Below, piece after piece: positions 30,020 through 58,654 of a stretch of DNA of 64,000 nt (its first letter is position 1; every line of letters begins with the position of its first letter). The translations under genes and the position numbers were made by a program. The notes under the pieces were generated by a model, which was given only the letters and a program-made list of their open reading frames with translations, ran no database searches and was not told where the DNA came from. The stretch is from a virus: positions 1-64,000 of the IMG/VR virus record IMGVR_UViG_3300035698_018475, one strand, 5' to 3'.

Positions 30020-31073
30020 GCCAAAGCTAATTTCTATTATTCAAAATGTGGCATCCACCAAGGTCCTACTGGTGGGGGACTTCATGCTCGACAGTTACAT
30101 CTATGGTGATGTTGGGAGAATATCCCCTGAGGTCCCAGTACCAATACTTGAAGTGAAGAGTAGGGAATATCACCCGGGTGGAGCGGGTGGAGTGGCGGCT
30201 AACCTGGCTAAGTTAGGGGCAGAGGTTAAGTGCTTTGGTATTGTGGGTGATGACCTTTCGGGGGACACCCTTAGGAAACTCCTATCAGATATTCCGAAAG
30301 TTGATGTAACTGGGTTGATCACCATAAAAGATGGGTTTGCCAGACCTACTACTGTTAAAGGCCGGTTCATGGGAGTATCCTCCGGTGGTCATAAACAACA
30401 ATTGCTGAGGGTGGATGAAGAACAGGTGGATCCCATTGACTCCCCGGTGAGTGATGTACTACTTAATATGATAGATTCTATCATGGAGTGGGCTGATATA
30501 GTGTGTATCCAGGATTACAACAAGGGGGTGGTCAGTCATGGTTTTTGTACTGCTTTGATACAATTAGCAAAAAGTAGTAATATCCCTGTAGTGGTGGATC
30601 CTGCAAAAATCCAGAATTACTCAAAGTATCACGGTGCTTATCTTATAAAGCCCAACAAGTTAGAACTATCTACAGTGGCACAGATGGAGGTGGATTCAAC
30701 AGAACAGATGTTAATAGCCTGTAAGAGATTGGCTTCCCTGGATATACCACATATAGTACTAACTCTTGATGGAGAGGGGATATTCCTATATTCAGACCAC
30801 TCTATTGAAGTGGGACCCAGTGCTCCAGTGGCTTCCCAAATCATACCCACCAAGGAGAGAGATATCTATGATGTCACCGGTGCGGGGGATATGGTAATAG
30901 CTGTATTGAGCCTACTTCTGGGTGGGAAGTGGGATGATCCTACTGAACCTTTAATCCTCAAAGAGTGTTGTGAACTTTGTAATATAGCTGCTGGTCTGGA
31001 AGTTGAGAAATATGGATCTTGTCCTATCACCAAGGCTGAAATAGTCCTGGAATTGGAGAGTTGTAATGAGTAA
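30003..31073 (+). CDS. HldE/RfaE-type heptose kinase-like protein (PfkB family)
   Basis: A 356-residue sugar kinase. It starts like the kinase half of HldE (VLLVGDFMLDSYIYGDVGRI) and has the glycine-rich PfkB signature HPGGAGGVAANLAKLGA, KPNKLEL, and the catalytic DVTGAGD (290-296). In bacteria this enzyme phosphorylates D-beta-D-heptose 7-phosphate for LPS core synthesis; the cytidylyl/adenylyl-transferase half is absent. GTG 30003 follows GAGGGG. Why a phage carries it between head genes is unclear: changed surface sugars, or interference with heptose-phosphate signalling, are possibilities. Confidence 0.75.
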   Translation: MIQVNRPKLISIIQNVASTKVLLVGDFMLDSYIYGDVGRISPEVPVPILEVKSREYHPGGAGGVAANLAKLGAEVKCFGIVGDDLSGDTLRKLLSDIPKVDVTGLITIKDGFARPTTVKGRFMGVSSGGHKQQLLRVDEEQVDPIDSPVSDVLLNMIDSIMEWADIVCIQDYNKGVVSHGFCTALIQLAKSSNIPVVVDPAKIQNYSKYHGAYLIKPNKLELSTVAQMEVDSTEQMLIACKRLASLDIPHIVLTLDGEGIFLYSDHSIEVGPSAPVASQIIPTKERDIYDVTGAGDMVIAVLSLLLGGKWDDPTEPLILKECCELCNIAAGLEVEKYGSCPITKAEIVLELESCNE

Positions 31074-31731
31074 ATTTCAAGATTTACACAAGAGTGTGAA
31101 GGAAAAGGTTTCTAAGTCTATTACAGAAAAGGGTAAACCCTCGAAAGATTTACTTCAGAAAGAGAAAATAGTAGCCCAAGCACAAAAAATTATTCTGGCC
31201 AATAGTTTTAAACTTGTAGAAGTAGAAGAATATGAGAAGCAAGATGGGGACTATCTTTATGAGGATCCTTCTGAAAATCAGGTAGGTATTTCTCGAGACG
31301 CTTTTACTCCAGATGAATATGAGATACCGGGGGTACCAGATATTGCCATAAGTATAACTTCTGCTTATGGTGGATATAGTAATAGGTACAATTTTCGTTT
31401 GGAGAAAGGAAAAGTAGTAGCCGGTGAAGAGGAAATTGAGACTAAGATGGATCTGGATCAGGAACTGAAAAATCTGGAGAAAGGCGTGAATGAAAAGGTC
31501 CGTGATGGGGATGTTACTTTTGTCGAGGATGGTGCGGAGCATTTGAACCATGCGACAGAACAAATAGGGGAAGTCATAGAAGAGTTGAATAATGCTATCC
31601 GTAACCTGGGGAGAAGAGTCAAAGCAAAGTATGGTAATCAATTAGAGAGAGTAAAGACTAAGCTGACGAAAATCAATGATGAGATAAGTCAAGTACAGGA
31701 TGATGTAGAACAGGCGTTGGGTGAGGAATAA
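31066..31731 (+). CDS. probable packaged protein with shared N-terminal leader
   Basis: A 221-residue protein. The first 15 residues (MSKFQDLHKSVKEKV) match the starts of the proteins at 32600 and 33491, while the rest differs. ITE (19-21) fits a gp21-type cleavage site. The C-terminal half is a long coiled coil. It overlaps the heptose-kinase gene by eight bases. Confidence 0.6.
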   Translation: MSKFQDLHKSVKEKVSKSITEKGKPSKDLLQKEKIVAQAQKIILANSFKLVEVEEYEKQDGDYLYEDPSENQVGISRDAFTPDEYEIPGVPDIAISITSAYGGYSNRYNFRLEKGKVVAGEEEIETKMDLDQELKNLEKGVNEKVRDGDVTFVEDGAEHLNHATEQIGEVIEELNNAIRNLGRRVKAKYGNQLERVKTKLTKINDEISQVQDDVEQALGEE

Positions 31732-31734
31732 GTG

Positions 31735-32229
31735 ATGGGTGATGTAGATCCCGAAATACGTAAACAAGTGATACAAGCCACTCTTGGTGGTACTGCTCTC
31801 AACGAGTTAAAGAAAAGTCTAGTTAATAGGAAAGAAGTAGATTTTGCTACGAAGAATTGTTCTCCAGTGGGTACTCCCACGGCCGTCAGTTCTAGGAGAG
31901 TGGTATTACATACTAAGACTTGCTGCCCTTGTTGTAAGTCAGCTATTACAGAGGGCAGCAGGTTTTGTTCTTCCTGTGGAGAAAAGGTGGATCACCCCGT
32001 ATTAGAGAATAACATGGCTAACAGCTTGGAATCGGGACAATCCCCTCTTAGGGGAGAGCCTGAGAAGCCTAAGAACGGTTCTAGTCTGAATGCAACACTT
32101 GAGAAGGTGTTACAAAACAAAGAGGAAGTGCATGACTTATCTGAGAGTGAGAAGTCGGGGTTGAGGCAAGAGGTTCTGGCAGATATGGATACCTCCCTGG
32201 TGGGTAAAATTATGTCAGGAGTGTTCTAA
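31735..32229 (+). CDS. zinc-ribbon protein
   Basis: From ATG 31735 (or GTG 31732), 164 residues. CCPCC and CSSCGEK form a zinc ribbon near the middle; the ends are helical and charged. Probably a head accessory gene by context; not recognised. Confidence 0.55.
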   Translation: MGDVDPEIRKQVIQATLGGTALNELKKSLVNRKEVDFATKNCSPVGTPTAVSSRRVVLHTKTCCPCCKSAITEGSRFCSSCGEKVDHPVLENNMANSLESGQSPLRGEPEKPKNGSSLNATLEKVLQNKEEVHDLSESEKSGLRQEVLADMDTSLVGKIMSGVF

Positions 32230-32588
32230 TGTTTAGTAAAATACTTGAGTTTGTGAAGGATAGATCTCATTTAAGTACTGCCAAACTAAGAGTGGTTGTA
32301 CAGTGGCCGGAATCAGAAGGTAAATTATCTTCCAAGCAGGTTCGATCTTTGCTGAATAAAGAGATCAGAAAGTTGGGAGTAGTATTGGGTGATGTAGAAT
32401 GTGTCCCAACTGAATTAGTGGGGAGAGATAAATCCGTGATTGGTCCCAGAAGAGTGCATCAGTTATATTTTGATCTTCGGTATGATCCTGGGAACAAACC
32501 ATCCAAGAAAGATATAGAGCTTGCACTGGGTAATATCTTTGAACCAGTAGGTGGTAAGATTCAGAGAGTACAAACATCAGGATTTTAA
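32229..32588 (+). CDS. hypothetical protein, leader-like N-terminus
   Basis: A 119-residue protein starting MFSKILEFVKDRSHLS, a short amphipathic helix like those of several neighbours, then a compact alpha/beta domain ending in a RVQTSGF tail. One-base overlap with the gene before. Confidence 0.55.
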   Translation: MFSKILEFVKDRSHLSTAKLRVVVQWPESEGKLSSKQVRSLLNKEIRKLGVVLGDVECVPTELVGRDKSVIGPRRVHQLYFDLRYDPGNKPSKKDIELALGNIFEPVGGKIQRVQTSGF

Positions 32589-32599
32589 GGAGTATATAA

Positions 32600-33088
32600 A
32601 TGAGTAAGTTTCAAGAGTTACACAAGGTGGTAAAAGAATCAGTTACTTTATCAGAAGCCACAGGGGAGTGGGCATCCCAGTGGTATAAGTGGATAGATCA
32701 AGAACAAGACACTGGAGAGTTATGGGAAATCTATGATTCTATCACCGGTGCGGCAGGGAGGGAATTTCCTGAAGATACTGCTGATATGGATATCACTAAA
32801 CTTCGTGTGGCATTGAAGAAGGCTGTGAGTGGTATGGATGAGGAGGAGTTGGAAGATAAGTTTCCCGGAGAGATCGGGGCTAAAAAGGAGAAGGTTATAA
32901 CCTTATCTAAAATATTGGATTCTATCTTTAAGAGTATCTTGGAGTCCGATGTTGATGGGGTTATAGATCAGTATAATGAGTTTTTTGGGACTAATTATAC
33001 TGCACAAGATGTACAACGGGATGTTGAAAGTTTCGTAGATTATGCTGAACAGAAGGGTATAACTCCACCTTATAGTGAGGAGGGGTAA
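32600..33088 (+). CDS. probable packaged protein with shared leader and LSE-AT site
   Basis: A 162-residue acidic protein. Starts MSKFQELHKVVKESV and has LSE followed by ATGEW at residues 17-23, matching the LxE-AT motif at the proposed capsid-protein cleavage site. AAGGAG precedes the start. The body is helical; function unknown. Confidence 0.6.
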   Translation: MSKFQELHKVVKESVTLSEATGEWASQWYKWIDQEQDTGELWEIYDSITGAAGREFPEDTADMDITKLRVALKKAVSGMDEEELEDKFPGEIGAKKEKVITLSKILDSIFKSILESDVDGVIDQYNEFFGTNYTAQDVQRDVESFVDYAEQKGITPPYSEEG

Positions 33089-33091
33089 CTA

Positions 33092-33475: not shown

Positions 33476-33490
33476 TTAAGGAGTACACAG

Positions 33491-33847
33491 ATGAATAAGT
33501 TCCAAGGCATTCATCAAGCGGTAAAAAATGAAGTAAGTATCAAAGAGCAGGGAGGAGGGGAAGATTATGAAGATGTTATCCGGGGATCAGAAGAAGAGTT
33601 TGCAGCCAGATCTGGTGGAGAGTTCCCCGGTGAAGATGATAATACTATTAGTAAGATCATAAGTATTATCTCTAATCAGCTCAGGGATAGTACTTTCAGG
33701 CAGGATATAGAGGAGATACTGGCAGAAGATCTGGGGTTTGGTTATGAGAAAGCCGAAGGAGTGGTAGGTAAAGTACTAGAAATTGTTGTCGCCAGGATGG
33801 GTTCTAGTATGTTCCGGGAAGATATAGAGGAATTGTACCATGAATGA
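33491..33847 (+). CDS. probable packaged protein with shared leader
   Basis: A 118-residue protein starting MNKFQGIHQAVKNEVS, the third clear copy of this leader. IKE followed by QGGG (17-23) fits an [I/V]xE-Q site. The rest is acidic with two related helical blocks (SNQLRDSTFRQDIEEIL and VARMGSSMFREDIEELY), suggesting an internal duplication. Confidence 0.6.
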   Translation: MNKFQGIHQAVKNEVSIKEQGGGEDYEDVIRGSEEEFAARSGGEFPGEDDNTISKIISIISNQLRDSTFRQDIEEILAEDLGFGYEKAEGVVGKVLEIVVARMGSSMFREDIEELYHE

Positions 33848-34168: not shown

Positions 34169-34189
34169 GTAAGTTTAAGGAGCTTTGAT

Positions 34190-42793: not shown

Positions 42794-45700
42794 ATGAAAG
42801 TTATACCTTTTCCGAAGGATGACAGGGAAGTTGTGTTCGAGAAGTACCAGATGGTACAAATGCAAGAAGGGGAAGAGCTCCCAAGTAAGGTGTTGTGCAG
42901 AGTGGTATATCCTGTGTGCAACCTTGATCAACTTAATGCAAATAAGAGGAGGTATAGGAAGGCAGTGTGGGAACAGGTGATGGATTCCGATACTCTTAAG
43001 GAAAAGTTGGACCACCGATGTCTGTTTGGGCACGCAGAACATCCTAAGGAGTCCCAGAGTCAGTTGGAGAAAACCTCTCATGTCATAAATAGGATCTGGG
43101 TAGATGAGGATTCTAATAGGGTGTTGCAGGAAATTGATGTTCTGGACACTCCTTATGGAAGAATAGTGGATACTCTACTGCAAGCTGAATGTGGAGTTGG
43201 AGTGTCCACCAGGGCTGAGGGGGAATTGGAGGAACAGAAAGATGATGAGGGTGAAACCTTTTATGATGTGATCCCGGAATCTTATGGATATATTACTACT
43301 GATTTCACCGCCGATCCCTCAACTCCTAATCCTTATCCCATGGAAGTGCAAAGGAGAATGGTGGAATCGATCGAAAAAGACAGGAACGATCTTGATCAGG
43401 GGTTCGCCATAGCCATGTTGGAGAGTATAAAGGGTAAGAAGGCACAATCTTTATGTGAGTCCATCAAGAGTAGTAAGGTGGAAGAAGAAGAGAAACCTTT
43501 GCAGAAAGTTAAACTAGTTGAACGAAGAGGTAAATCCGATCCCACCTATGCCAAGAAAATCATGGACTTCATAGATGGGGAGTGGAAAGAGACCCGGGAG
43601 AAGGATCTCACCAAGTTGATGCAAGAGTACAGGGAGCATATTAAGGTGGCACCCAAAGAGTCAGTGAAGAACTGGCTCGGTAGATTATGGCAGACTAACG
43701 AGAAAGGTTTGGTCCCCTTTGTGTCTGAAGAGTTCGTGAGGGACTATAAATCGTTATTGGAGCAGGAGGATCCGGGAGAGTTCGATCTTGATGGGGAAAT
43801 GGCGGCAGAGGGGAATGCTGGGGCAAAACCAGGTGAGGAGGAGTTGGAGGGAGATCTGGGTGATGAGGAAGTTATAGGTGAGCCTGAGGGAGATGGGGAT
43901 ATCCCGGGAGAGCCTGGTCCGGATCTGGAAGTTCCTGGGGAAGAGATGATAGTGGGTGAAGAGTTACCTGCAGAAGGAGAACTACCACCTGGGTTTGGTG
44001 CAGAAGTATCAGTGGGAGTTATGGATATTCCCGATGTATCGGCCACAGCCCTGATGTTACCTCCCCCGATATTGGATCCTCGAACAGCGGGAGTGAGCCA
44101 GATAGCCGATAGATTTGGATTCTTGGAGTTTATGACAGATTCAGGTAATAGTGTGGTCAGTCCATATCTGCAGAGGTTGGAAAAGGAGAGGTTGGATCTA
44201 TTGGATGAGTTGTCCTACAGATATTCCAGATCTGTCAGGGAAAGTAAGAAAGGGCAAAAGATTGAGTTCCGTGTTGATGAGTCTAAACTGTTGGAAATCC
44301 AGGATGTTAGATCCTCCAAGAGGGTTATTGAGTTCCTGGAAAGGGATTGGACAGAACCCGTGGAGAAGAAGATCTCCAAAACTATCCTGGAAAATAAGGA
44401 TACTATTCTTAAAGCTCCTATGGGGGAGACCAAGGATTATCTTTCCAGGGTGTGGGAAGCACAGTCTGAAGAGTTGATAGTTGATGCTTCTGATGACTTT
44501 GTTGATGAGTTACTGGAATTGATTAACTCTGATCCAGTGGATGAAACAGAAGATATCAAACAAGTATATACCGATGCTGGATTGGATCCCCCGAAAGGTA
44601 AGGGTATTCATACCAAGAAGTTCCATCGGATGGCGACTGATATAATGAAGGGGTATAGTGATGGGGAGCCCACTGAAGAAGAGAAGGGTATAGCATACGC
44701 AACTACCATGGATAGACTGGGAAGAGATAAGTCGGTGAGGAAGAGTCACCATCAGGATAAGTCTGAGAAGATTAACATCCAGGAAAACTACTGGGGGTTA
44801 TTGGACTTCCTAACTAAGTGGGAGGAGAACAAGGGTAAAGTGCCAAAGAAGAAGAAAGTGGAGTCAAGTGCAACTAAACCCGTCAGTTGTCAGTCTGAGG
44901 GAGACATAGTCAGTGGTAGGTTGTTTGAGAAGAAGAAAGTGAATGAGCAAGAGGGAGATTTATCTATAGAAGAAATTAAAGGTTACATGAGAAAGACCAT
45001 AGCTCAGATGTCTGATCCACAGTATGAGGATGTGATAGCTTTTACAGAAGAGTGGTCTAAGATAAAGCTCCCTGATACTGATGAAGTAATGGATGCTGCA
45101 AATGAGGTTATACGAGAGTTTGATCGTCTGGTGGAGATGTGGTCAAGTGGAGAATCTGGATGGGTAGGGGATGATGATATGGAGGAATCAAAGAAAAATA
45201 AATCTTCTATTGATCTTCAAATACAAGAGGCTTCCACCCGGGCTGAGAGAGATAAAGCTTTGGAGGTTCTGGAAGATATCCAGAACCAGCTTAAGCAATT
45301 ACAGGATTCAAAAGAGGTGGAAGTCGGATTACTGTTAGCTAAGTTACAGGAGAGTTCCTCTGATATAGTCCAAAGTTATCAAGCGTTGAAGAATAAGTTG
45401 AAGGAAACCTTCGGGGAACTAAAGGTGGCAAAGGCCAGTCTTGATGCAGATCAAGAGGAACTGGCCAAGAAGGATGCTACTATAGCTACTTTGAAGGGGG
45501 ATGTTACTCAGATGAAAGCTGAGTATGGTACAGAGATAGAACAATTGGAGAACCGTCATCTTACTGAAAGAACTAAGATGTTAAAAGGTTATACACAAGC
45601 CAGATTAGGCGAAAGTTCTTATAAAGCAATTCCAGACAGAACTCGAGCACTTCTTGAGGAATCAAAAGATCTGGAAGAGGTTGAAGACCGGCTAATTGCG

Positions 45701-45865
45701 GTCCGGCAGACCCTTAGAGAGAATGCACTTCATTCTACCGGGGATATTGGGATTGATAAGATCTCTGTCACTACCATAGATAGTACCGATCCTAAGCAAG
45801 CTGCAGTCAGTAAAGGCGTTAATCTGGCCTGTGAGGGTATGTTAGGAACTAAGAAGAAAAGTTAA
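42794..45865 (+). CDS. prohead protease (gp21-like) fused to scaffolding protein
   Basis: A 1023-residue protein. Residues about 1-190 follow the gp21-type protease: NLDQLNANKRRYRKAV, the histidine pair in GHAEHP, SHVINRIWVD, LDTPYGRIVDTLL and GVGVSTRAEG with the serine. The rest is scaffold-like: an acidic Gly/Pro region (about 325-410), two related blocks of about 80 residues (near 252-330 and 512-590), and a long coiled coil (about 810-935). KKVNEQ (E718) and INIQEN (E664) may be self-cleavage sites. In T4 the protease and core are separate genes (21 and 22). AGGAG precedes the start. Confidence 0.75.
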   Translation: MKVIPFPKDDREVVFEKYQMVQMQEGEELPSKVLCRVVYPVCNLDQLNANKRRYRKAVWEQVMDSDTLKEKLDHRCLFGHAEHPKESQSQLEKTSHVINRIWVDEDSNRVLQEIDVLDTPYGRIVDTLLQAECGVGVSTRAEGELEEQKDDEGETFYDVIPESYGYITTDFTADPSTPNPYPMEVQRRMVESIEKDRNDLDQGFAIAMLESIKGKKAQSLCESIKSSKVEEEEKPLQKVKLVERRGKSDPTYAKKIMDFIDGEWKETREKDLTKLMQEYREHIKVAPKESVKNWLGRLWQTNEKGLVPFVSEEFVRDYKSLLEQEDPGEFDLDGEMAAEGNAGAKPGEEELEGDLGDEEVIGEPEGDGDIPGEPGPDLEVPGEEMIVGEELPAEGELPPGFGAEVSVGVMDIPDVSATALMLPPPILDPRTAGVSQIADRFGFLEFMTDSGNSVVSPYLQRLEKERLDLLDELSYRYSRSVRESKKGQKIEFRVDESKLLEIQDVRSSKRVIEFLERDWTEPVEKKISKTILENKDTILKAPMGETKDYLSRVWEAQSEELIVDASDDFVDELLELINSDPVDETEDIKQVYTDAGLDPPKGKGIHTKKFHRMATDIMKGYSDGEPTEEEKGIAYATTMDRLGRDKSVRKSHHQDKSEKINIQENYWGLLDFLTKWEENKGKVPKKKKVESSATKPVSCQSEGDIVSGRLFEKKKVNEQEGDLSIEEIKGYMRKTIAQMSDPQYEDVIAFTEEWSKIKLPDTDEVMDAANEVIREFDRLVEMWSSGESGWVGDDDMEESKKNKSSIDLQIQEASTRAERDKALEVLEDIQNQLKQLQDSKEVEVGLLLAKLQESSSDIVQSYQALKNKLKETFGELKVAKASLDADQEELAKKDATIATLKGDVTQMKAEYGTEIEQLENRHLTERTKMLKGYTQARLGESSYKAIPDRTRALLEESKDLEEVEDRLIAVRQTLRENALHSTGDIGIDKISVTTIDSTDPKQAAVSKGVNLACEGMLGTKKKS

Positions 45866-45881: not shown

Positions 45882-47357
45882 ATGGAAATGCAACAGATGA
45901 TAGAGAATCGTTTGACCGCTATCACTGAGAGCCGGAAGAGGCTGATCAATGAGTGGGATCCCTATATCTCTGCGGTCAATGAATGGATGAAGAGTGAAGG
46001 TGGTGGGCAAGAACTTTCTGAGTACGATAAGCAGAACATTGCCCAGTGCCTGGAGAATGCGTTGGTTGAGACCGGGTTGAAAAGTCGATCTCGGCTCTTA
46101 CAAGAAGCTACCACCGGAGATGCCATTCAGTTCATGGCTGTACAACTTCCGGTAATTGCCGCTCTTATTCCCAGTCTTGTGCTGAATAAGGTGGCAATCG
46201 TCCAAGCCCTGGATAGGCGGCAAGGTGCAGTATTTTATCTTGACGCCCTATATGGTACCACTAAGGGTGCCATTACGGCCGGCGATACCATGATCAGTGC
46301 TCAGACCGGGCATGCAAGGACTCGGGCAGCTCAGCGGTATGCTGTTACTACGGTGGAAAATGAGACCCTGGCAGATGACACTCTGGCAGCCAATACCATT
46401 ACTGGGTCGTTGGCTTACCGGCCCATGCTGGGTACTCTGAATATCACCCACGGTTCAGAGACTATTACTGATGTGGTGAATCCGGGTCAGTTGGTTTCTA
46501 ATGTCACAAACAACCCCTGTGGTTGGGTCAAGGTGGATGGTACATTCAGTGTGACCCTGAATGCCACTCCCTCAAGTGGTGGTAATGTGTATGCCGATTA
46601 CTGTTACTACTATGACACGGCCGACGATGGTGATCCCCTGGTCCCGGAGATTGATATCCAGCTACGATCTGAGATGTTGACTGCTCAGGACTTCCCGCTG
46701 AGAGCAAACTATTCAGTGGGTGCCAGTATTGATCTTGAGAAAGCACATGGTTTAATCCTCGAGGACGAGATCGTGAAGTTCCTCGGTGGTGAAATCAAGT
46801 TCGAGGTAGATCGCTACGGGCTCGATTTGATCTTACAGGCGGCCACTGGTGCCAGTGCAGCGACTCCAACTGGTACCTGGGTGGCAGCCCCCGGAGCCGG
46901 TCAGGAATGGTTATGGAAGAAGTATGAGTTCTTGGATCGGATAGAATATGGATCCAACAACATCTTCAGCCAGACCCTCCGTGCCATGTGTAATTTCATT
47001 ATCGCCGGTAATGATGTTGCTCGAGTTATCCGGCAGATGGGTGATCACTTCAAGCCCGCCCCCGGGTTGGACAAGCAGGTGCCCACCGGACCAATCGAGT
47101 TGGGTACTCTGGATGGTCGGCTGGTCATCCAGGATCCATTCCAGACTCATGACAGGTATATCCTCGGTTATAGGGGAGACAACTACCTGTTTGCGGGTGC
47201 TGTGTATGCACCGTATATTCCCCTGTTCAGTACTCCCACATTGGTAACTGCTGATCTGATGGCTCAGAAAGGCTTTATGACCTCCGCTGGTTTTAAGATT
47301 ACCAATCCCGGGATGTACACCTATGGGGATATAGATATATCCGGTATGTCCTCCTAA
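45882..47357 (+). CDS. major capsid protein (gp23-like)
   Basis: A 491-residue capsid protein. Signature segments are LPVIAALIPSLVLNKVAIVQALDRRQGAVF (given here as a position, about 90-118), DALYGTTKG, and a TLRAMCNFIIAGNDVARVI helix; the end resembles gp23 (YILGYRGDNYLFAGAVYAPY). Residues 1-75 look like a propeptide: they are charged and helical and end in LLQE (72-75) before ATTGDAIQF. T4 gp23 is cut after a Glu at position 65 by gp21, so cleavage after E75 is likely. AAGGAA lies upstream. Confidence 0.85.
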   Translation: MEMQQMIENRLTAITESRKRLINEWDPYISAVNEWMKSEGGGQELSEYDKQNIAQCLENALVETGLKSRSRLLQEATTGDAIQFMAVQLPVIAALIPSLVLNKVAIVQALDRRQGAVFYLDALYGTTKGAITAGDTMISAQTGHARTRAAQRYAVTTVENETLADDTLAANTITGSLAYRPMLGTLNITHGSETITDVVNPGQLVSNVTNNPCGWVKVDGTFSVTLNATPSSGGNVYADYCYYYDTADDGDPLVPEIDIQLRSEMLTAQDFPLRANYSVGASIDLEKAHGLILEDEIVKFLGGEIKFEVDRYGLDLILQAATGASAATPTGTWVAAPGAGQEWLWKKYEFLDRIEYGSNNIFSQTLRAMCNFIIAGNDVARVIRQMGDHFKPAPGLDKQVPTGPIELGTLDGRLVIQDPFQTHDRYILGYRGDNYLFAGAVYAPYIPLFSTPTLVTADLMAQKGFMTSAGFKITNPGMYTYGDIDISGMSS

Positions 47358-47966: not shown

Positions 47967-49397
47967 ATGTCCAGACTACTTAATTCATCTAGTACTTCTT
48001 TTACCGGGGTGGATCTAACGGCTTCCCTGGATGTGGAACTTGTGGCTTATACTGCTACCAAAGATGTTGTATTGGATATACGTGCAGATATTGGTTCATC
48101 CTTAGGACCATTGAATAATGCAGTGAGTACTATAACTATCTCCGCCTGGATAACCAGGACCAATGGGGAAGAAGTAGAGACTTTCAGTGAAGATCTAAGT
48201 AAAGCATCCGGGCAGACTCAACTTCCATACAATTTTTATAAGAAGCTCTTGGTTCTTCGTGGTGAAGTTATAACCATAACTGGTTATAGTACCAACGCTT
48301 TGGATACTTCTATTGGTGGAGAGGTGTATATCTTTGGTAGGAATGTAAATTACTCTAGCGTCTCTTTCACTCAAGCAGATTTAACATCTTTGGTAGAACT
48401 GGGTTCATACACAGCCACCCATGATTTTGAAGTTTATGTCAGGGTAGACCTAGGTACTTCCACTTATGTATTAAACACTGGGGTGGTAAATCTAGATCTT
48501 ATTGGGGATTTGACCAATAGTTCTGGAGTGGAGGCCATTACCTATGAAGCAACTATCAGTAAGGGTGTAGGAATAACCATGCTGATATATATGCTGGATG
48601 ATTCTGTCAAGCTCCGGGATGATGAACAATTGGCTATAAATGTTGTATCAGATAATGCATCAGATATTGCTGTCAGTGGTACCATCTATTTTGCCCTATT
48701 AAGTACCACCACCAAGAGTGCAACTTTGGATTGGTTGAAAAATGAGTTCCTCCCATTGGAATTGATAACCCCGGATGAAGCGATCTACCAGCAGATAGAT
48801 AATTCAATTCGTTATTGGAATACCCACAGTGGTCGTAAGATTAGTGCTGTGGTGGAAGCAAATAGAGGGGATTCCAGGGTTCAGGTGGATCCAGAGTTTA
48901 AGACTGTAGTGCAGGTGTGGCCCACACAGAACACTGAGTGGATCCTGAATGATCATCCCATGTGGTCCCTGTTGGGTATAACCTTATTAGATAATGTGAC
49001 TACTGATCTGATTATAATGTCGGAGGCTTTCAAGAATTATAGGCAGTATGTGGGGACTAATTTCCAATGGACTTTTGAGAGGTCCTTGGATCCCGCCGTT
49101 GGGGGTTACTTGTATTATGATAATATACCTTCCCAGAATGAAGCCTTATTTGTAATAGGTACAAAACGAATCCTAGATGGGGAGGACATAGTAGATGATT
49201 ATATCCTGGATTGGATACAATACTATGCTCTATCGTTGATAAGAATTATAGAGGGAAATGCTCAGAGGAAGGCCGGCATCATAGGGGTAGCCAATGATGG
49301 GGCCGATCAATTACGGCAGGGGATGGATGAGAAGAAGGAACTACAGCAAAGGGTAGCTATAGATGCAAGATGGGTTGCTCTTGCAAAGAGAATATAA
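47967..49397 (+). CDS. neck/connector candidate with two N-terminal beta domains
   Basis: A 476-residue protein. Residues 5-125 and 130-245 are two copies of one beta domain (compare SFTGVDLTASLDVELVAYTAT with SFTQADLTSLVELGSYTAT). From about 255 an alpha/beta domain begins WLKNEFLPLELITPDEAIYQQIDNSIRYW, and it ends with a helical tail. This last part follows the pattern of head-tail connector (gp13/14-like) proteins found after the capsid gene. The doubled beta domain could be a head-surface decoration. Confidence 0.5.
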   Translation: MSRLLNSSSTSFTGVDLTASLDVELVAYTATKDVVLDIRADIGSSLGPLNNAVSTITISAWITRTNGEEVETFSEDLSKASGQTQLPYNFYKKLLVLRGEVITITGYSTNALDTSIGGEVYIFGRNVNYSSVSFTQADLTSLVELGSYTATHDFEVYVRVDLGTSTYVLNTGVVNLDLIGDLTNSSGVEAITYEATISKGVGITMLIYMLDDSVKLRDDEQLAINVVSDNASDIAVSGTIYFALLSTTTKSATLDWLKNEFLPLELITPDEAIYQQIDNSIRYWNTHSGRKISAVVEANRGDSRVQVDPEFKTVVQVWPTQNTEWILNDHPMWSLLGITLLDNVTTDLIIMSEAFKNYRQYVGTNFQWTFERSLDPAVGGYLYYDNIPSQNEALFVIGTKRILDGEDIVDDYILDWIQYYALSLIRIIEGNAQRKAGIIGVANDGADQLRQGMDEKKELQQRVAIDARWVALAKRI

Positions 49398-50209
49398 TGT
49401 TTCAAGAATTACTAACATTTGTGCAGCAAGAAGTTGAGCATGACAAGTGGGTGTGCTTCGACTTTGATGGAGTGTGTTCAAAATATGATGATAATTTTGA
49501 ACTGGACTCCTTTGGACTCCCTATTCCTGGGGTAGCTGAGTGTATAAGGAATTTAAGGGGTAGTGGTTATAAAGTAACTCTTAATACTTGTAGGACTAGG
49601 ACTCCTGCGATGGATCAGTGGTTAGAAGAGAATGGGTTTGTCTTTGATTCTATAAATGATACTTCTCATAACCCTCAGTACTCTAGTAATGCTAAACCCG
49701 CGGCTGAACTATATGTGGATGATAGGGGGTTCAGGTTTAACCAGGATGAACCGGATAAGGGTGTGGAACAGATCTATCACTTATTGGATATGAATGAATC
49801 TGTCTCGTTCCATGTTATTAGTGAGACCACTGTGGATCATGCAAAGAACGAGTTGGAGAAGGCCGGATTGTTTGATAAAGATTCTGATTATGAAGGTATG
49901 ATTGGTCAGGCCGTTATGGATCTGATGAAAGTGTTTAGTGGTCAGGGTCACTCCGGGTTCTCCGCTGGAATGACTAGAGATATTTTTAACAAGTTGTCCA
50001 ACTTTGAAACCTTGACCCCAATAACTGATGATCCTTCAGAGTGGATGGATGTGACTGAATATGGAGCAGAAGGGTCTCCAAAGATGTGGCAGAGTAAGAG
50101 AGATCCATCCTTGTTCAGTTCCGATGGGGGAAAGACTTATTATGATGTGGATAAACCGAAGAAGATCATGAAGTCTGAGACAAGTAAGAGTAAGAAAGAT
50201 GTTGCCTAA
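49397..50209 (+). CDS. HAD-superfamily hydrolase with virion-type leader
   Basis: A 270-residue protein from ATG 49397, overlapping the previous stop by one base. Residues 1-14 (MFQELLTFVQQEVE) look like the short leaders of nearby proteins. Then a HAD phosphatase domain: FDFDGVC with D22 and D24, a TLNTCRTR segment, and LYVDDRG with the metal-binding aspartates. The C-terminal part has LTPITDDPSEWMDV and WQSKRDPSLF, a pattern I associate with other phage proteins of unknown role. The substrate is unknown. Confidence 0.6.
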   Translation: MFQELLTFVQQEVEHDKWVCFDFDGVCSKYDDNFELDSFGLPIPGVAECIRNLRGSGYKVTLNTCRTRTPAMDQWLEENGFVFDSINDTSHNPQYSSNAKPAAELYVDDRGFRFNQDEPDKGVEQIYHLLDMNESVSFHVISETTVDHAKNELEKAGLFDKDSDYEGMIGQAVMDLMKVFSGQGHSGFSAGMTRDIFNKLSNFETLTPITDDPSEWMDVTEYGAEGSPKMWQSKRDPSLFSSDGGKTYYDVDKPKKIMKSETSKSKKDVA

Positions 50210-51005
50210 CAGTTTATTGCGTATACCTTTGGATGAAGCAAACCTTCCTGCTATTAAAAGGAAGCAGGCATCTATAACCAGGTTATTTCCCCCGTTCCAT
50301 AAAAGAGTTAGGGCGGTTAAGAGGAATGGTGGAGTCACTCTGTTCGATACTGATCCTACTGTATGGCATTTTGAGGTAACTTCTGGGACGGAACCAGGTA
50401 CCAGTTATGTTGCTCATGTTAAATTCATGAACCTTAAAAGGTGGTTACGTAGAGCAGTAGCAGATAAGAGATTGTGGAAGAAGGGAACTAATCGTATTGA
50501 CCTAAAGAAAGTGGCTGATCTTATACTGAACAAGATAGATCTAAGAGTTTTATGTACCTGTCCGGCCTTCCAATACTACGGCCCTGCTTATATCTTAAGT
50601 CTAGGGAAGTATAAAGCCAAGTATGGTTCTCAAGAAAGACGACCTCCAGATATCAGGAATCCTAAACAGTATGGTGCTGTGTGTAAACATATGCACCTAT
50701 TATTGAAGGAACTCCCTGGTATGACCAGTAAGTTTGCTAATTTCTTAAGGGAATACTATACGGAAGATATTGAAAGATTTAGGAAGAAGGGAATTCAGCA
50801 AGCAATTAAGTTCAAGAGAGCCGGGGAGGAACTGGGTAAGCGTAAGGAAGAAGTTGAAGTTGAAACAGAAGAAGAGATGGAGTATGATATGGGGGAAGCC
50901 ACTACAGGGGATGCAATTGCTTTTGAACCATCACACTTTGGGACAAAGCCAATAGGTTCTGTCCCTGATTCTTTAACAAAGAGGAAGAAAAAGAAAAAGA
51001 AATGA
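50199..51005 (+). CDS. SWIM-like zinc protein with EATTGDAI motif
   Basis: A 268-residue protein overlapping the gene before by 11 bases. Cysteines C119, C121 and C162 with H164 (CTCPAF then VCKHM) form a SWIM-like zinc site, with RRPPDIRNP between. Near the C-terminus, E233-A234 lies in MGEATTGDAIAF, almost identical to the capsid protein's cleavage region (LQEATTGDAIQF). It ends in a run of lysines. Similar proteins occur among head genes of large phages, role unknown. Confidence 0.55.
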   Translation: MLPNSLLRIPLDEANLPAIKRKQASITRLFPPFHKRVRAVKRNGGVTLFDTDPTVWHFEVTSGTEPGTSYVAHVKFMNLKRWLRRAVADKRLWKKGTNRIDLKKVADLILNKIDLRVLCTCPAFQYYGPAYILSLGKYKAKYGSQERRPPDIRNPKQYGAVCKHMHLLLKELPGMTSKFANFLREYYTEDIERFRKKGIQQAIKFKRAGEELGKRKEEVEVETEEEMEYDMGEATTGDAIAFEPSHFGTKPIGSVPDSLTKRKKKKKK

Positions 51006-51586
51006 GTGACATCATACTTAACCAGTTAGAGAAACTAATAGCTACTGAACCTTTTAAGGTCATAGATAATAATGCTATGCTGTGGAGAGATATATTTGGA
51101 GTAAGATCTGTACCTACTCCAAATACAATTGCAATCCCTGCTTTTTCCATTAGTAGGAAGAATAACCGATTAGAGACTTTGGCTAAGATGATCCAGCGGT
51201 TAGTGGATAACAGAAGGGTTAAACAAGTAAAAGGGGATATCATAGATAGGATGATAGGGGAGAAGAATACTTCTCTTATACTTTCCCATCTTAAGAATTT
51301 GAGTCACCTATATGGGATAAAAATTTGGAGTTCTATTGATTGTATAAGTGTTACTTACAGTGCAGTAATAACTTCTGATCTCCGTCCTCTTGAACAGGTG
51401 CTGATAAGTGACGGGGATATAATGGATAAGGTGCAAGAGATTGGGCAGGGTCTGGTGGTGGGGGACTATATCATACCCTCTGGGGGTGGTAATTTCGATA
51501 GTAGATTTTTCTATACCATAAAAGACGTGATGGAAGGAAGATATGATGAAGTCGATGAAGTCAGTGAAGTCGATATTGGAAGCTAA
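51002..51586 (+). CDS. hypothetical protein, neck region
   Basis: A 194-residue alpha/beta protein, four-base overlap with the gene before. It ends in an acidic tail (YDEVDEVSEVD) that the next gene's start overlaps. Not recognised; by position possibly a connector. Confidence 0.55.
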   Translation: MSDIILNQLEKLIATEPFKVIDNNAMLWRDIFGVRSVPTPNTIAIPAFSISRKNNRLETLAKMIQRLVDNRRVKQVKGDIIDRMIGEKNTSLILSHLKNLSHLYGIKIWSSIDCISVTYSAVITSDLRPLEQVLISDGDIMDKVQEIGQGLVVGDYIIPSGGGNFDSRFFYTIKDVMEGRYDEVDEVSEVDIGS

Positions 51587-51996: not shown

Positions 51997-53460
51997 ATGG
52001 GTGTTAATGTAACAAGTCTTTTAAGTTATATCCAGGATTCTGTCAACAGTCCCACTAATGAGGAACGGGGGGAAGGCATGGGTGTGGGTGGTCCCCGTCA
52101 GGGGGATGGTGGGATGGCTGCTTGTTATTGCCAGGAGTGTGGAGCTATACTTGAAAAGAAGAGGGGAGTTCCCTGTACTCTTGCCTATCAGAAATGTCCT
52201 GAGTGTAGTAAAGATGCTGTGGTGGGTATAGACCAACAGGAGCTTGATAGGATTAACCAAGAGAAGGAGAAGACTACTTCCAGTACTGAAGAGAGTAAAG
52301 AAGAAGTACCCTGGCACAAAGTTCCTGTAGGGAGAAGGGGAAGGACAGATTATGAGCTTCAATGTTTGGAATGTGGTCATAAGTTCCATACTCTTCCACC
52401 AAGTGAAAAATGTCCAATATGTGGATCAACTGATATTGATACCTATGTTGAGGAGAGTGTGGAGGGGAAGAAACCTGTTGTAGAAGAGTTAGGTACTCCA
52501 GAGGTAGGGGAGGAACAGGATAAAGTTCAACCCATTCCCACCGATAGAGAAGTATTTGCCTTTCAACACTGGGCTAATGGTCAGGAATTATTGAACTATG
52601 TTGAGAGGGAATTGGATAATATGGAGTTATCCAAAGAGAATGTACCAAGGGATGGTAAGATGTATGTGGAGGGGGAATCCACTTTTAAGGGGAATACTGT
52701 TCAAGTGGCTTCTGATTGGTTAGGGCAGGCACCATCAAATAAACATCACTTCATTATTTACCCAAGGTCTGAAGAAGGTAGATGGGAAGAATCTAAGGAG
52801 AATATACTACTGCAGTGTCGGGGGTGTGGGGAAGTCCTCGATGAGAAGGTGGAGAAGTGTAATTGTGGAGCCACTGAGTTTGAGGATCTACTCCCAAAAG
52901 TAAGTGAGGGGGGTTCCAAAAGTAAGGAAGAATCTATTAGAGAACAGTTTGGAGAGGAAGGTAAATTAACTCCTGTAGCCAAGGGTGTAGCAGACAAGAT
53001 GGATGCTGAGACTATAGCCAGGAATAAAAATGGTAAAGTAGTATCCGACCCGGATGATCCCCAGAAATTTATGGTAGTTGTAGAAGAAAGTGGATCTATA
53101 AATGAGCAGGAGAGACAGAACTTTACTACAGAAGTGGATGTTAACCTGACTTGGGAAGGGTATGGGGAGAGAGAAGAAGATATAGATCTTGTATCTAGGA
53201 AAGCCACTGTCAATTATGCATTGGATGTGCACTACCGTGCTTATGGTATAGGAGGTATAGTGCCTACTTTCACAGAACCAGTGGAAATCCTATACACTGA
53301 TGCCTCTGGGGAAAGAAAAGTAGAAGCAGATCTGAACGATGCTGAGATATACTGGGAAGCTGGAGAAGTGTATGCCCCCAATATGATAGGAGTAAAAGTT
53401 GATTCAACTGGTAAAGTTTTGAATACAGAAGTTTGGTTTAGTTACATAACGAAGACTTAA
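51997..53460 (+). CDS. large protein with three zinc ribbons and leader
   Basis: From ATG 51997 (GAGGTGA upstream), 487 residues. It starts MGVNVTSLLSYIQDSV, a leader-like helix. Zinc ribbons are CQECG...CPECS (about 42-72), CLECG...CPICG (about 125-145) and CRGCG...CNCG (about 273-290). INEQE (E370) matches the KKVNEQE motif of the core proteins, and a beta domain follows to the end. It may be cut at E370 so that only one part stays in the virion. Confidence 0.55.
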   Translation: MGVNVTSLLSYIQDSVNSPTNEERGEGMGVGGPRQGDGGMAACYCQECGAILEKKRGVPCTLAYQKCPECSKDAVVGIDQQELDRINQEKEKTTSSTEESKEEVPWHKVPVGRRGRTDYELQCLECGHKFHTLPPSEKCPICGSTDIDTYVEESVEGKKPVVEELGTPEVGEEQDKVQPIPTDREVFAFQHWANGQELLNYVERELDNMELSKENVPRDGKMYVEGESTFKGNTVQVASDWLGQAPSNKHHFIIYPRSEEGRWEESKENILLQCRGCGEVLDEKVEKCNCGATEFEDLLPKVSEGGSKSKEESIREQFGEEGKLTPVAKGVADKMDAETIARNKNGKVVSDPDDPQKFMVVVEESGSINEQERQNFTTEVDVNLTWEGYGEREEDIDLVSRKATVNYALDVHYRAYGIGGIVPTFTEPVEILYTDASGERKVEADLNDAEIYWEAGEVYAPNMIGVKVDSTGKVLNTEVWFSYITKT

Positions 53461-53472
53461 ACGACTATAGGA

Positions 53473-53508: not shown

Positions 53509-53533
53509 ATATGGTTTGTGGGGTTAGATATAT

Positions 53534-55621
53534 ATGTTAGATCTTGAATCAAGGCATTTATGGATCAAAACTGATGGTACTACCTGGGATGCACCAGAAG
53601 GGCATGACCAATGGGCTTACAGGAAGATGAGGGGCTTCACTGGGAAAGAACCTGTATCAGATCCATCAGAGTTATGGCAGAAACTGACTGGGGATGTTAA
53701 GGTAAGTATTTCTGGGAATAGTATAGGGTTTGCATTCCATCGGGGAATTACCAGGAATCAAATAGATACTCTTAGATATATGGCAGAAGATTATACTACT
53801 ATTGGTTATGAGATATTTCCCTCTGAGGGTAATCCTATACAGACCCATGAGGAGATGCCCATAGGATTAACTTCTATGATGGGGGATCTTAGACAGGCAG
53901 GTATGTTGAAAGAAGCAACAGAGTACCCAGAATGGGGGCAGTATTGGATATATCCAAATGGAAGAGTAGAGGAAGTAGAAGGACATCAAGTAAGTGCTGG
54001 GAAACATTTTGGAATTAAACGACCTGCTTATAGTGCGGTGTACAGATTTATGAAGAAAAAGAAACTTATACGTGCTGTCACTTATGACTATACAGAAGTA
54101 GTTGTATTTGAATCTGTAATTAAACCTACTTCTTCTCAAATGAGAACCATCAGAAAGATGATGAGAGGAGCAAAAGAGGTACAGTTTGAAGTAACAAAGA
54201 AGATAGGTAGAACATATGAAACGGTATTTACAACAGAGGAACTTCATGAATTCTACAACTATAATTATGGTAAGGAGATAGATGAATCTCTTACGGAAAC
54301 TGTTAATAAGCAAGGATTACAACGTTTACTAAGGGTATATCAAGCACAGGAAAGAGGGGAAGATCCTGATTCTCAAGATCTTTATCATTCTCTAGTGATG
54401 ATGAGGGGGTACTATTCTGAATTCCTCGATTGGTACAAGAAGTATACGAGAGAGAAGTTACCTAAGTCAGCGAAGTTGGCAAGAGAAGATTATCGTAAAA
54501 GATTGAAAGAGATTGAAGCTGTTTTGGGGTCTGAAGAACTTAGATATAAAAGATTAGTAGTTTTAGATACTGCTATAAACCAGTGGCATGTAGATTTTCC
54601 CGTTATCTCTCATTTGGGGATGGAGGAAGGTGAAGATGATTTTGAATTGGAAAATCTTGCACATGATATTGCAATTATTCTTCGTAAGTTAGGAAGATTA
54701 CCAAAGAAGAGTCCTTATGTTACAGAATCTCTAATAGACTTCCCAGAGCAAGGGTTAGACCCTTCTATATGGGATTCTTATGTGAGTGGTTTACATATAT
54801 TAAAACCAGAGGTAAAGAGAAAGATTTTTCTAACTCTTCAACAATATCCTGGGTTTAGCCTATTGTCCATCCCTGGAGCTGATTATCATATAACTGGGTC
54901 GATGGGTACTAATCAGTATCAGGAAGATACAGATATAGATATTCATATAGTCCTCCCAGAGAGTTCTGAATATGCTGATAAGGAAATTCAGAGGCAGGTA
55001 TTTAAGTGGTTCAAAGAGTACAGAGATGTGATTGATGGTTATGTCAATCAGCATCCAATAGAAGTATACCTCCAGATAAATCCTTATCAGGAATACCTTT
55101 CCGATGCGGTATATGATATATTGAACCAAGAGTGGAAGAAAGGACCTTCCGTGGTACCCATGGATTTTGATCCATACGAAGAATATGTGGATATCTTGGA
55201 TGATGTGAATCAGGAAGCAGTTGCCGCAGATATACTCCTCGGAGAGTTGAAAAGGGATGTAATAGATTATGATACTATTAGACTTGCAATCAAAAGGAAT
55301 TTACCCACAGAGGTAAAGCAAAAGTTACTGACTCGTTTGCAGTCCCATCTGGAAGAGGTTGAGCAAGATATAGAAGAGTTGTATAAATTGAGGGGAGAGT
55401 GGGTACAGGATAGGAATCTGGCTTCTCAACCCACCAGTTTGGAACAGGCATTGGGTGATGTTGAGATGTCCAAGAGTTGGCGAGATAAAAATGCTATTTT
55501 CAAGTTTTTGAATCGTTATAATTATTTGAAACTTATTAGTGATTTGGCTAAAATGATAGAGGATGAAGTGGTAACTGATAGTGAGATGAATATCATTGGG
55601 GGTATGATAGGAATTGGGTAA
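53534..55621 (+). CDS. nucleotidyltransferase-like protein with two N-terminal repeats
   Basis: A 695-residue protein. Residues about 8-97 and 137-215 are related blocks (HLWIKTDG...QIDTLRYM and QYWIYPNG...QMRTIRKMM). Between them LKE-ATEYPEW (E127-A128) fits the LxE-AT cleavage motif. Residues about 445-520 match a minimal Pol-beta-type nucleotidyltransferase: GS (455-456) then D467-x-D469 in TDIDIHIVLPE, with a later acidic strand (PIEVYLQ). The rest is helical. Such folds add nucleotides to RNA, proteins or drugs; a virion-carried version would act on the host at infection. Confidence 0.5.
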   Translation: MLDLESRHLWIKTDGTTWDAPEGHDQWAYRKMRGFTGKEPVSDPSELWQKLTGDVKVSISGNSIGFAFHRGITRNQIDTLRYMAEDYTTIGYEIFPSEGNPIQTHEEMPIGLTSMMGDLRQAGMLKEATEYPEWGQYWIYPNGRVEEVEGHQVSAGKHFGIKRPAYSAVYRFMKKKKLIRAVTYDYTEVVVFESVIKPTSSQMRTIRKMMRGAKEVQFEVTKKIGRTYETVFTTEELHEFYNYNYGKEIDESLTETVNKQGLQRLLRVYQAQERGEDPDSQDLYHSLVMMRGYYSEFLDWYKKYTREKLPKSAKLAREDYRKRLKEIEAVLGSEELRYKRLVVLDTAINQWHVDFPVISHLGMEEGEDDFELENLAHDIAIILRKLGRLPKKSPYVTESLIDFPEQGLDPSIWDSYVSGLHILKPEVKRKIFLTLQQYPGFSLLSIPGADYHITGSMGTNQYQEDTDIDIHIVLPESSEYADKEIQRQVFKWFKEYRDVIDGYVNQHPIEVYLQINPYQEYLSDAVYDILNQEWKKGPSVVPMDFDPYEEYVDILDDVNQEAVAADILLGELKRDVIDYDTIRLAIKRNLPTEVKQKLLTRLQSHLEEVEQDIEELYKLRGEWVQDRNLASQPTSLEQALGDVEMSKSWRDKNAIFKFLNRYNYLKLISDLAKMIEDEVVTDSEMNIIGGMIGIG

Positions 55622-55626
55622 AGTCA

Positions 55627-56175
55627 ATGTTTAGTAGTTTATTATCTCATATTAGAGAGAAAACTAGTCCTTACGGTATTGCTGGTTTAGAAGGTAAGAT
55701 GTGGTCTAAACTAGTAAGTTTAGAGATGGAAGCTACAGGAGTAGCTTTTGATATGGAGAATGATGATTCTGTGGGAGAACCCAAGAAGATAAAAGTTGAA
55801 GTTCTAGATAATATGAAGGACTTGTATCCCAAGGTGTTTGTACTATGTACTTTATATTCTGCGGGAGGAGATTGGCAGAACTCTGTAGGGTACTTCCGTT
55901 GTCAGTTGTTTAAGGGTACTGAAGCAGGAGAAGTATTTGTTGTAATACCAGTTGAGGGTAATGCTAATTTAGAAGCTAATGATAAAGGAGTGTACATTCC
56001 TACGGAGGGGGATGATCACACTTTGGTTAAGGATATGAATCTTTGGAAAGGTTTGAAAGATCTGATACAGGATAGGTTGGAAGTACATCATGATCCTTCT
56101 CAACCTTACGATGGAGCACCTTATAAGAGATCCAGGATGTTTCCTTCACATGATGTTCATAGGATATTTAGTTAA
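55627..56175 (+). CDS. structural candidate with leader-like start
   Basis: A 182-residue protein. Starts MFSSLLSHIREKTS, with IRE (9-11) as a possible cut site, then a mixed alpha/beta domain. It overlaps the next start. In the neck-gene block; not recognised. Confidence 0.5.
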   Translation: MFSSLLSHIREKTSPYGIAGLEGKMWSKLVSLEMEATGVAFDMENDDSVGEPKKIKVEVLDNMKDLYPKVFVLCTLYSAGGDWQNSVGYFRCQLFKGTEAGEVFVVIPVEGNANLEANDKGVYIPTEGDDHTLVKDMNLWKGLKDLIQDRLEVHHDPSQPYDGAPYKRSRMFPSHDVHRIFS

Positions 56176-56821: not shown

Positions 56822-56823
56822 TT

Positions 56824-57564
56824 ATGGCAGACACTTTCATAAAAGTCATAGATGAAGCTGTTAGAAGCTTGGTTTTCACCAAGTTTGGTGATGATATGGG
56901 CTTTTCTTCCATTGAGAGTGATGATGTTATATTGTTTCCCAAGGAAGTAGCTCAGAGAGTTATTGCCGAGAAGAGGGGAGTGAATGAAGTAGAGTTCGCA
57001 AATGTGTGGAGAGAAGCGACAAATATTGATTGGTCGAGGCAGAGAACTCCGTTAGCCAGACATGGTGTGTGGGGATCCTATGTGGATGGAGAATCCCCTG
57101 CTTCCGGTATAAGTGGAGAACGTATTGCTTTGGTAAATGCAAAGGCTGTTCCGGGAACCTTTGATTACGGTATTTGGTTCTGGAGTCAGGATAAGGATAA
57201 GGTAAATGCAGTTACTGAAACATACATGTTTTGGCCTCAGGATGACCCAAATCTTAGTCTAATTTTGAATGATATATATCCCCTCGAGTTTGATCTTCAT
57301 TTTGGGGAAATCCTGGATGAATCAGATCTCCCCACTATATTTGAGGTAGGTAGACTATTTGTAATACATATTCCTCTTAAGGTAGATGGTTGGGTGTTTA
57401 ACTTATCTCAGACAAGGACAATTAAGAAAATAGTCTTGACTTTATGGGATCATGATAATATATTAGACAGGTATGATGATGAAGAGGAGTTTTTACAAGA
57501 TGCTCCTTCAAGCGAGAAGAGTGTGTTACAATTATATCAAGAAACTACTTATGCAGATGAATGA
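56824..57564 (+). CDS. tail completion protein candidate (gp15-like by layout)
   Basis: A 246-residue protein. It has GTFDYGIWFWSQDKDKVN, a segment like the one in tail-sheath terminator proteins (an aromatic strand followed by a helix), then LPTIFEVGRLFVIHIPLKVDGWVFN. Its place just upstream of the sheath gene fits the T4 gp15 job of closing the tail and joining it to the head. Similarity is weak. Confidence 0.45.
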   Translation: MADTFIKVIDEAVRSLVFTKFGDDMGFSSIESDDVILFPKEVAQRVIAEKRGVNEVEFANVWREATNIDWSRQRTPLARHGVWGSYVDGESPASGISGERIALVNAKAVPGTFDYGIWFWSQDKDKVNAVTETYMFWPQDDPNLSLILNDIYPLEFDLHFGEILDESDLPTIFEVGRLFVIHIPLKVDGWVFNLSQTRTIKKIVLTLWDHDNILDRYDDEEEFLQDAPSSEKSVLQLYQETTYADE

Positions 57565-58654
57565 TCTTTTACAATTTATTAGAGATTCTGTTCAGGTAGA
57601 ATCCAAGAAGTCTGTAAAACGGACTTATTTGGATACAGGTAGAATCTCCCAGGAAGAATATAATAGTATCCTATCTTGGGATCCTACTGAACAGAAAAAG
57701 TACAGTGACTGGTTAGCCAAACAGTTTGTGGCCAAAGTTGATCCAGTGGAACTGGAACATGGTATACAAGACTTTCACCAAGGAGTAGAGAAGGGTTTAA
57801 TCAGAAACAAAGATATAAATACTTATACAATGGAGGAGTTTAATCAAGTTCTTGGTGAAATTGAGGGAGTTAAGACCGGGGGTGAAACAGAGGAGGAAGT
57901 TAAGAAAGGTGCTGACAAAGTTTGGGAGGATAGTTCCTATCTTGTGGTTTCACCACAAACTAGGGAAGCCTCTTGTTATTATGGGAAAGGTACTAAGTGG
58001 TGTACTTCTGCTACCAAGAGTAAGAATTATTTTGATACTTATAGATATAAAAAACATGTGAAATTTTACTATATAATAGATAAGAGGACGCAAGAGAAAT
58101 GGGCTGTGGCTGTAGATAGGTATGGTAATAAAGAATATTTTGATCAAAAAAATAAAAATATACAGAACATTCCTAGTGATGTACCTAAAAATATATTTAC
58201 ATCTTTCTCTAAGAAAGAAATAAAACAAATTATATTTGGGCAGGGAACAAGGAATTCTGATGGTTCTTACAGTTTTAAGGGAGATTTGGGTATAGCTGGC
58301 TTAGATCTGAAGAGTATAAAAGACTTAGGTGTAAAGATAAGAGACGTAGGAGGGAATTTTGATTGTTTTGATAATGAACTAACTACTTTAGAGGGATCTC
58401 CACAAAAAGTAGGAGGAAATTTCAATTGTCTGTATAACATACTAACTACCTTAGAAGGATCTCCACGAAGGATAGGAGGAAATTTCAATTGTTCAGGTAA
58501 TAAATTAACTACCTTAGAAGGAGCACCAGATTGGGTGGGAGGAAGTTTCAATTGTTATGATAACCCTCTTGAATCCTTAGAAGGTAAACCGGAATATATA
58601 GGTAAGAAATTTATGGTTCCAAGAAAATTGAGTAAGAGAAAAATTGAAATATAA
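57557..58654 (+). CDS. leucine-rich-repeat protein with leader-like start
   Basis: From ATG 57557 (or 57551), 365 residues; the longer in-frame ATG 57473 lies in the gene before. It starts MNDLLQFIRDSVQVE, leader-like. Residues about 125-215 hold YYGKGTKWCTSA and FYYIIDK, a domain seen in other phage and plasmid proteins of unknown function. Residues about 264-347 are four 21-residue leucine-rich repeats (GGNFxC..N.LTTLEGSP). Such repeats usually bind proteins. Its place between neck and sheath genes suggests a virion or injected protein. Confidence 0.6.
   Translation: MNDLLQFIRDSVQVESKKSVKRTYLDTGRISQEEYNSILSWDPTEQKKYSDWLAKQFVAKVDPVELEHGIQDFHQGVEKGLIRNKDINTYTMEEFNQVLGEIEGVKTGGETEEEVKKGADKVWEDSSYLVVSPQTREASCYYGKGTKWCTSATKSKNYFDTYRYKKHVKFYYIIDKRTQEKWAVAVDRYGNKEYFDQKNKNIQNIPSDVPKNIFTSFSKKEIKQIIFGQGTRNSDGSYSFKGDLGIAGLDLKSIKDLGVKIRDVGGNFDCFDNELTTLEGSPQKVGGNFNCLYNILTTLEGSPRRIGGNFNCSGNKLTTLEGAPDWVGGSFNCYDNPLESLEGKPEYIGKKFMVPRKLSKRKIEI
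58346..58597 (+). repeat. four 63-base leucine-rich repeats
   Basis: Tandem units start at 58346, 58409, 58472 and 58535. Each codes for 21 residues with the pattern (V/I)GG(N/S)F(D/N)C then L-x-(T/S)LEG. The units are close in DNA sequence, so they expanded recently. Confidence 0.9.

Follow-up and report, generated by a model that had tools for sequence, protein, structure and literature searches.

Why should a series of otherwise unrelated phage proteins begin with much the same short peptide? The question is raised by the window analysed here, the first 64,000 nucleotides (1-64000) of a virus record that is 124,322 bases long (a 124-kb T4-like myovirus) and of which all but the last 522 bases were covered in the analysis. 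An earlier note had picked out eight proteins whose N-termini it took to be versions of one amphipathic helix, and had suggested by analogy with T4 that this leader targets them to the capsid as cargo for injection into the host. All eight ORFs and their start codons were confirmed, and most are preceded by a ribosome-binding site or coupled to an upstream stop codon (the start of 57557, for example, overlaps the upstream stop). They lie without exception in the portal-to-sheath interval of a T4-like head and tail module at 27 to 63 kb, in which a portal with an intein is followed by a protease fusion, a gp23-type capsid protein and then the tail sheath and tube, these last two identified by reading of the sequence. 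The features concerned, with proteins named below by their first base, are as follows.

27040-29643, plus strand: T4-type portal interrupted by an intein (PF07230 and PF14890)
31066-31731, plus strand: 221-aa coiled-coil-like protein, strict leader MSKFQDLHKSVKE (31066-31104), V-K-E candidate cleavage site
32229-32588, plus strand: 119-aa protein, doubtful leader MFSKILEFVKD
32600-33088, plus strand: 162-aa protein, strict leader MSKFQELHKVVKE (32600-32638) by pattern and profile, V-K-E
33491-33847, plus strand: 118-aa protein, strict leader MNKFQGIHQAVKNEV (33491-33535) by pattern and profile
42794-45865, plus strand: S77 (T4 gp21-type) prohead protease (aa 45-181) with a long scaffold-like extension at its C-terminus (PF03420, phrog_207)
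45882-47357, plus strand: gp23-type major capsid protein (phrog_138)
49397-50209, plus strand: leader MFQELLTFVQQEV (49397-49435) by its ranks, HAD-like domain and Tad3 (Thoeris inhibitor family) domain (PF25185)
50199-51005, plus strand: member of conserved head-module family F1 by clade-wide motif spacing, variable leader ending L-D-E (50199-50237)
51002-51586, plus strand: likely member of family F2 by family pattern, assigned by eye, leader ending A-T-E (51002-51049)
51997-53460, plus strand: 487-aa zinc-ribbon-like protein, loose leader MGVNVTSLLSYIQDSV (51997-52044)
53534-55621, plus strand: nucleotidyltransferase-domain fusion without obvious leader
55627-56175, plus strand: 182-aa protein, loose leader MFSSLLSHIRE (55627-55659)
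57557-58654, plus strand: 365-aa leucine-rich-repeat (LRR)-like protein (phrog_17056/7816), loose leader MNDLLQFIRDSV (57557-57592)

Several other features of the record deserve mention. The portal intein (PF14890, 66 bits; within 27040-29643) sits between the two portal parts and has an HNH-like insert, and a PfkB-family sugar kinase (30003-31073, 92 bits), by eye of the ADP-heptose type, is encoded after the portal and ahead of the first leader gene. Genes of the QueC, QueD (PTPS), GTP cyclohydrolase I and radical SAM (QueE-like) types are found at 4996-5682, 17121-17546, ~111.4-111.9 kb and ~121.2-122.0 kb of the record; these probably make up a preQ0 pathway and hint that the DNA carries 7-deazaguanine modifications. 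At ~84-93 kb of the record (L005:1-9500) there is a tandem array of about seven similar, weakly glycosyltransferase-like proteins whose starts are variants of MxKPVISIYxPSIRPxxW.

The near-identity of the first residues of 31066, 32600 and 33491, and the divergence that follows, were borne out. In the 124-kb record the DNA pattern ATG-N3-AAR-TTY-CAR is confined to these three genes, with one occurrence in each, and the leaders score 42-58 in pairwise comparison (BLOSUM62; threshold 26). Enrichment over shuffled N-termini is likewise present. With pairs whose bodies are homologous left out, six N-terminal pairs on unrelated bodies score at least 26 (BLOSUM62) between 27 and 58.7 kb, against a mean of 0.6 pairs for shuffles and 0.9 for internal peptides; in neither control did any of 100 reach six. 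No such enrichment of N-terminal pairs is seen in the remaining genome (10 vs about 7.5). The leaders are amphipathic (moment 0.40 vs 0.26 permuted), and their identical residues are often specified by different codons (7 of 8 between 31066 and 33491, for instance), which argues that it is the peptide that is conserved under selection and that this is not freshly copied DNA. No function for the three strict-leader proteins emerged from searches of PHROGs, Pfam and NCBIfam.

The further claim, that looser versions of the same helix start the other five proteins, stood for four of them, and in altered form. A profile built from the strict leaders of 31066, 32600 and 33491, run across the 155 N-termini of the genome, ranked 49397 fifth but could not separate the other loose leaders. 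These make a second type, xLLxFIxDSV, in a register picked by hand, for which the leave-one-out ranks out of 151 were first for both 57557 and 51997, second for 55627, fourth for 49397 and seventh for 32229 (weak; p_internal 0.02). The combined profile and leave-one-out ranks do not support the idea that all eight proteins belong to one leader family: the strict and loose leaders appear to be two sub-families, and the membership of 32229 is unproven. Likely orthologues of 51997 in most related phages start with a similar helix. Among the early genes, the protein at 4056-4994, which starts MNLDKFQDILQEKK and has no PHROG match, also scores well with the strict profile (p ~0.0005 before correction for 155 N-termini).

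Related phages add a second dimension to the pattern. Capsid-protein searches yielded 17 further distinct uncultured phage records, all metagenomic and with gene starts predicted in this analysis; their capsid proteins are mostly about 45-57% identical and some of the genes are partial or interrupted. In many of the 17, the same gene region bears unrelated proteins with common leaders, and the version differs from genome to genome: MKKLLE..LLE on about 17 proteins of G001 (many of them LRR paralogues, several not), MSFEEIYEKVEE in G002, MR[KEQ]LLE.L in G003, MSLEKDI..KKLVE and MSSFEEMIEDIK in G004, and MPYDDELR and GDLIERN in G008. A few records (L018, L019 and L022 among them) have no significant leader set in the stretch examined. 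In the 482 proteins compared, 121 pairs from the same genome combine unrelated bodies with similar N-termini, vs 11 for internal peptides and 33 (maximum 51) with genome labels permuted. When paralogues are collapsed there are 66 pairs vs 25 (maximum 44), and the excess is stable at other thresholds and without the richest genome, G001. Leaders follow the genome, as would be expected of an address recognised by a receptor particular to each genome. With T4 as a positive control, the expected IPII/IPIII and IPIII/IPI matches were recovered; no such leader set was found in the stretches examined of SP-15, LIS04, Molly and immuto, which have T4-like capsid proteins.

Two details of the related records may be noted here. 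The LRR cluster of L066 (3551-11841, minus strand) starts MKKLLE[SG]LLEQ(E)DIFKPPTEEEL, with the adjoining non-LRR proteins having only MKKLLE in common, and in L034, L036, L038 and L039 (around 8600-11000) the capsid genes seem split or interrupted by inserted ORFs, some of them probably homing endonucleases. Relatives of the capsid protein were not found in sequenced bacterial genomes. In the viral contigs searched, the HAD-Tad3 protein retrieved one relative and the protease N-terminus none.

As in T4, where capsid targeting sequences (CTS) place the same short N-terminal peptide on unrelated bodies, the leaders occur in a phage with both an S77 (gp21) protease and a gp20/gp23-type head. 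The protease at 42794 matches PF03420 with 33.8 bits (cut-off 27) and phrog_207 with 90.5 bits, and its fusion to a scaffold-like part is found in the window and in all eight relatives scanned, in some of them under the curated cut-off. In G008 a 2H phosphoesterase domain (40.5 bits) lies within the fusion, following the protease and preceding the remainder (L021:7224-9926). T4 gp21 cuts after L/I-x-E, and Asp at the cut position stops processing whilst targeting still works (PMC9026906). The capsid protein of the window is predicted to be cleaved after L61-V62-E63 (46062-46070), and the column that aligns with T4 gp23 E65 reads [LM]-x-[ED] in 10 of 10 clade proteins.

The leaders themselves tend to end in a comparable motif. 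Hydrophobic-x-Glu is found in 86% of 84 leaders identified by similarity vs 54% of residue shuffles, a count of events that are not independent, since leaders are related within genomes; Glu at other spacings is not enriched in these 84. Two conserved families of the head block show the arrangement more clearly. In F1 (50199 in the window) the leader varies and is followed by [LIMV]-x-E and a conserved body, the distance from the Glu to the body motif being constant in 17 of 17 genomes, and in F2 (probably 51002 in the window) this succession is found in about 12 of 13; the N-terminus of control families is about as conserved as the body. Enriched clade-wide, the terminal motif is present in only some of the leaders of the window, as V-K-E in 31066 and 32600, I-R-E in 55627 and L-D-E in 50199, and there is an Asp at the expected cut in 51997, 57557 and 32229. 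Given that Asp blocks processing in T4 but permits targeting, window proteins with Asp or with no fitting Glu may stay uncut.

How a leader is joined to its body is best seen in 49397, which consists of the leader (aa 1-13), a HAD-like domain (aa 14-132) and a Tad3 domain (aa 145-261; PF25185, 118.8 bits, cut-off 27). Residues 14-132 are 58% identical to a leaderless stand-alone HAD protein encoded on the other strand of the same genome near 113.5-113.9 kb, and the similarity begins directly after the leader, marking a module boundary. L021_3291 of G008, with 55% identity to the Tad3 part, bears G008's own leader, one that is also present on an unrelated protein of that genome. Tad3 occurs in 2 of the 18 records, each time behind its own genome's leader; in two isolated phages no more than about 7 residues separate it from the annotated start, leaving no room for a leader, and in a third it comes after a longer N-terminal part. 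Inhibition of Thoeris is a candidate function for the Tad3 part of 49397, suggested by the family name. The nucleotidyltransferase of the window is joined to another N-terminal part, and its homologues in several relatives bear differing leaders of their own; a fold search gave weak MNT-type matches only (best E 0.037).

Other leader proteins of the clade carry recognisable domains. 2H phosphoesterase/Acb1-like domains are found in leader proteins of G007, G014 and G017, of which only G017 passes the Acb1 cut-off, the other 2H domains matching weakly or better as general 2H proteins. The leader set of G014 includes an SLT transglycosylase and that of G004 a weak cell-wall hydrolase match, activities that would suit proteins leaving the head at infection, and LRR proteins are present in several genomes. 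The cargo as a whole (Tad3, Acb1-like 2H, SLT and the weak cell-wall hydrolase) fits delivery.

A leader common to unrelated proteins, with its own version in each related phage, is most likely a functional counterpart of the address tag by which T4 brings helper proteins, anti-immunity proteins among them, into its head. The computed results (leaders that are specific to each genome, enrichment of the cleavage motif, the S77 protease with a T4-type portal and capsid, and modular junctions such as that of 49397) favour the capsid-targeting interpretation of the earlier note, and we put at about three in four the probability that the leaders are T4-like capsid-targeting propeptides sending proteins to the prohead, a destination inferred from the sequence. 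Similarity to the T4 CTS (MKTYQEFIAE) itself is not significant (32600 ranks fourth of 155), and we therefore propose like function for the leaders and not descent. Also weighing against the interpretation are the patchy presence of the terminal motif in the window and the negative result for the stretches examined of SP-15, LIS04, Molly and immuto. During prohead assembly, the amphipathic helix would dock on the inner core, probably on the long scaffold-like extension of the S77 protease, and so carry the attached protein into the prohead; the protease would then cut after the terminal hydrophobic-x-Glu in most family members, freeing the cargo in the head, to leave with the DNA at infection. 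We hold this last step, injection into the host, to be somewhat better than an even bet, and some of the cargo could be structural and not injected.

This last point leads to the strongest competitor, in which the leaders are propeptides that serve assembly, belong to structural proteins of the inner head or connector and are removed by the S77 protease; no cargo would then reach the host. At least some leader proteins do look structural, as F1 and F2 are conserved over the clade and located in the head-tail gene block. Much of the set varies between genomes, however, and Tad3, 2H phosphoesterase, SLT, HAD and LRR domains are needed by no capsid, so that we regard the explanation as unlikely for the leaders in general.

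An amphipathic helix might instead serve another address, be it host membrane, tail or replication compartment, and in the cell-wall hydrolases of two relatives the N-terminal segment is indeed followed by a hydrophobic stretch. Against this, the leader genes cluster in the head block, outside which the genome is not enriched, and the leaders contain the prohead-protease motif at the right spacing, making a different destination improbable. Hardest to sustain is the idea that the similarity is functionless, leftover homology from recent duplication or recombination of gene starts. Some leader genes are adjacent and numerous LRR paralogues of the L007 phage start alike, but the differing codons, the exclusion of pairs with homologous bodies, the persistence of the signal after paralogue collapse and its recurrence in many genomes with different sequences leave very little room for it.

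Returning to capsid targeting, a bolder extension is that this uncultured T4-like clade operates as an open cargo platform, in which each phage uses a private address code that fits its own scaffold, unrelated genes are recruited by gaining the start, and the cargo includes pre-loaded Tad3 (against Thoeris) and Acb1-like 2H proteins (against CBASS) that act as the DNA enters. We offer this tentatively, with the odds somewhat against it. If the capsid-targeting interpretation is right, leader searches would provide a simple listing of virion-delivered proteins in uncultured T4-like phages, counter-defence genes included, and the genome-specific codes would allow leader-scaffold matching to be tested and could yield packaging tags that do not cross-react.

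Among known systems the closest is the T4 CTS of IPI, IPII, IPIII and Alt, in which a short N-terminal peptide is likewise common to unrelated proteins of a phage with a gp20/gp21/gp23-type head, and whose gp21 consensus is matched by the hydrophobic-x-Glu end seen clade-wide and in some window leaders. T4 CTS cargo is diverse and includes counter-defence proteins (PMC9026906, PMC3012670). The present system differs from that of T4 in the fusion of the protease to a scaffold-like part, in its larger sets (one relative has up to about 20 leader proteins, of which many are LRR paralogues), in the leader particular to each related genome and in the two leader types of the window. In P1, an N-terminal signal of DarB suffices to bring a reporter into the capsid and the cargo is counter-restriction (PMC9024508), a likeness to the leaders described here, which are known from sequence. 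The inner-head propeptides of phiKZ and SPN3US are cut by a gp21-like protease after A-x-E or S-x-E, and SPN3US gp53 and gp54 have an identical 15-residue start in common (PMC5694885); several of these propeptides, however, are longer than 100 residues and gp53 is a paralogue of gp54, whereas the leaders here are about 10-16 residues long and stand on non-homologous bodies. The present clade is unusual in how large and varied its sets are, in the private code that each genome has and in the candidate immune inhibitors among the cargo.
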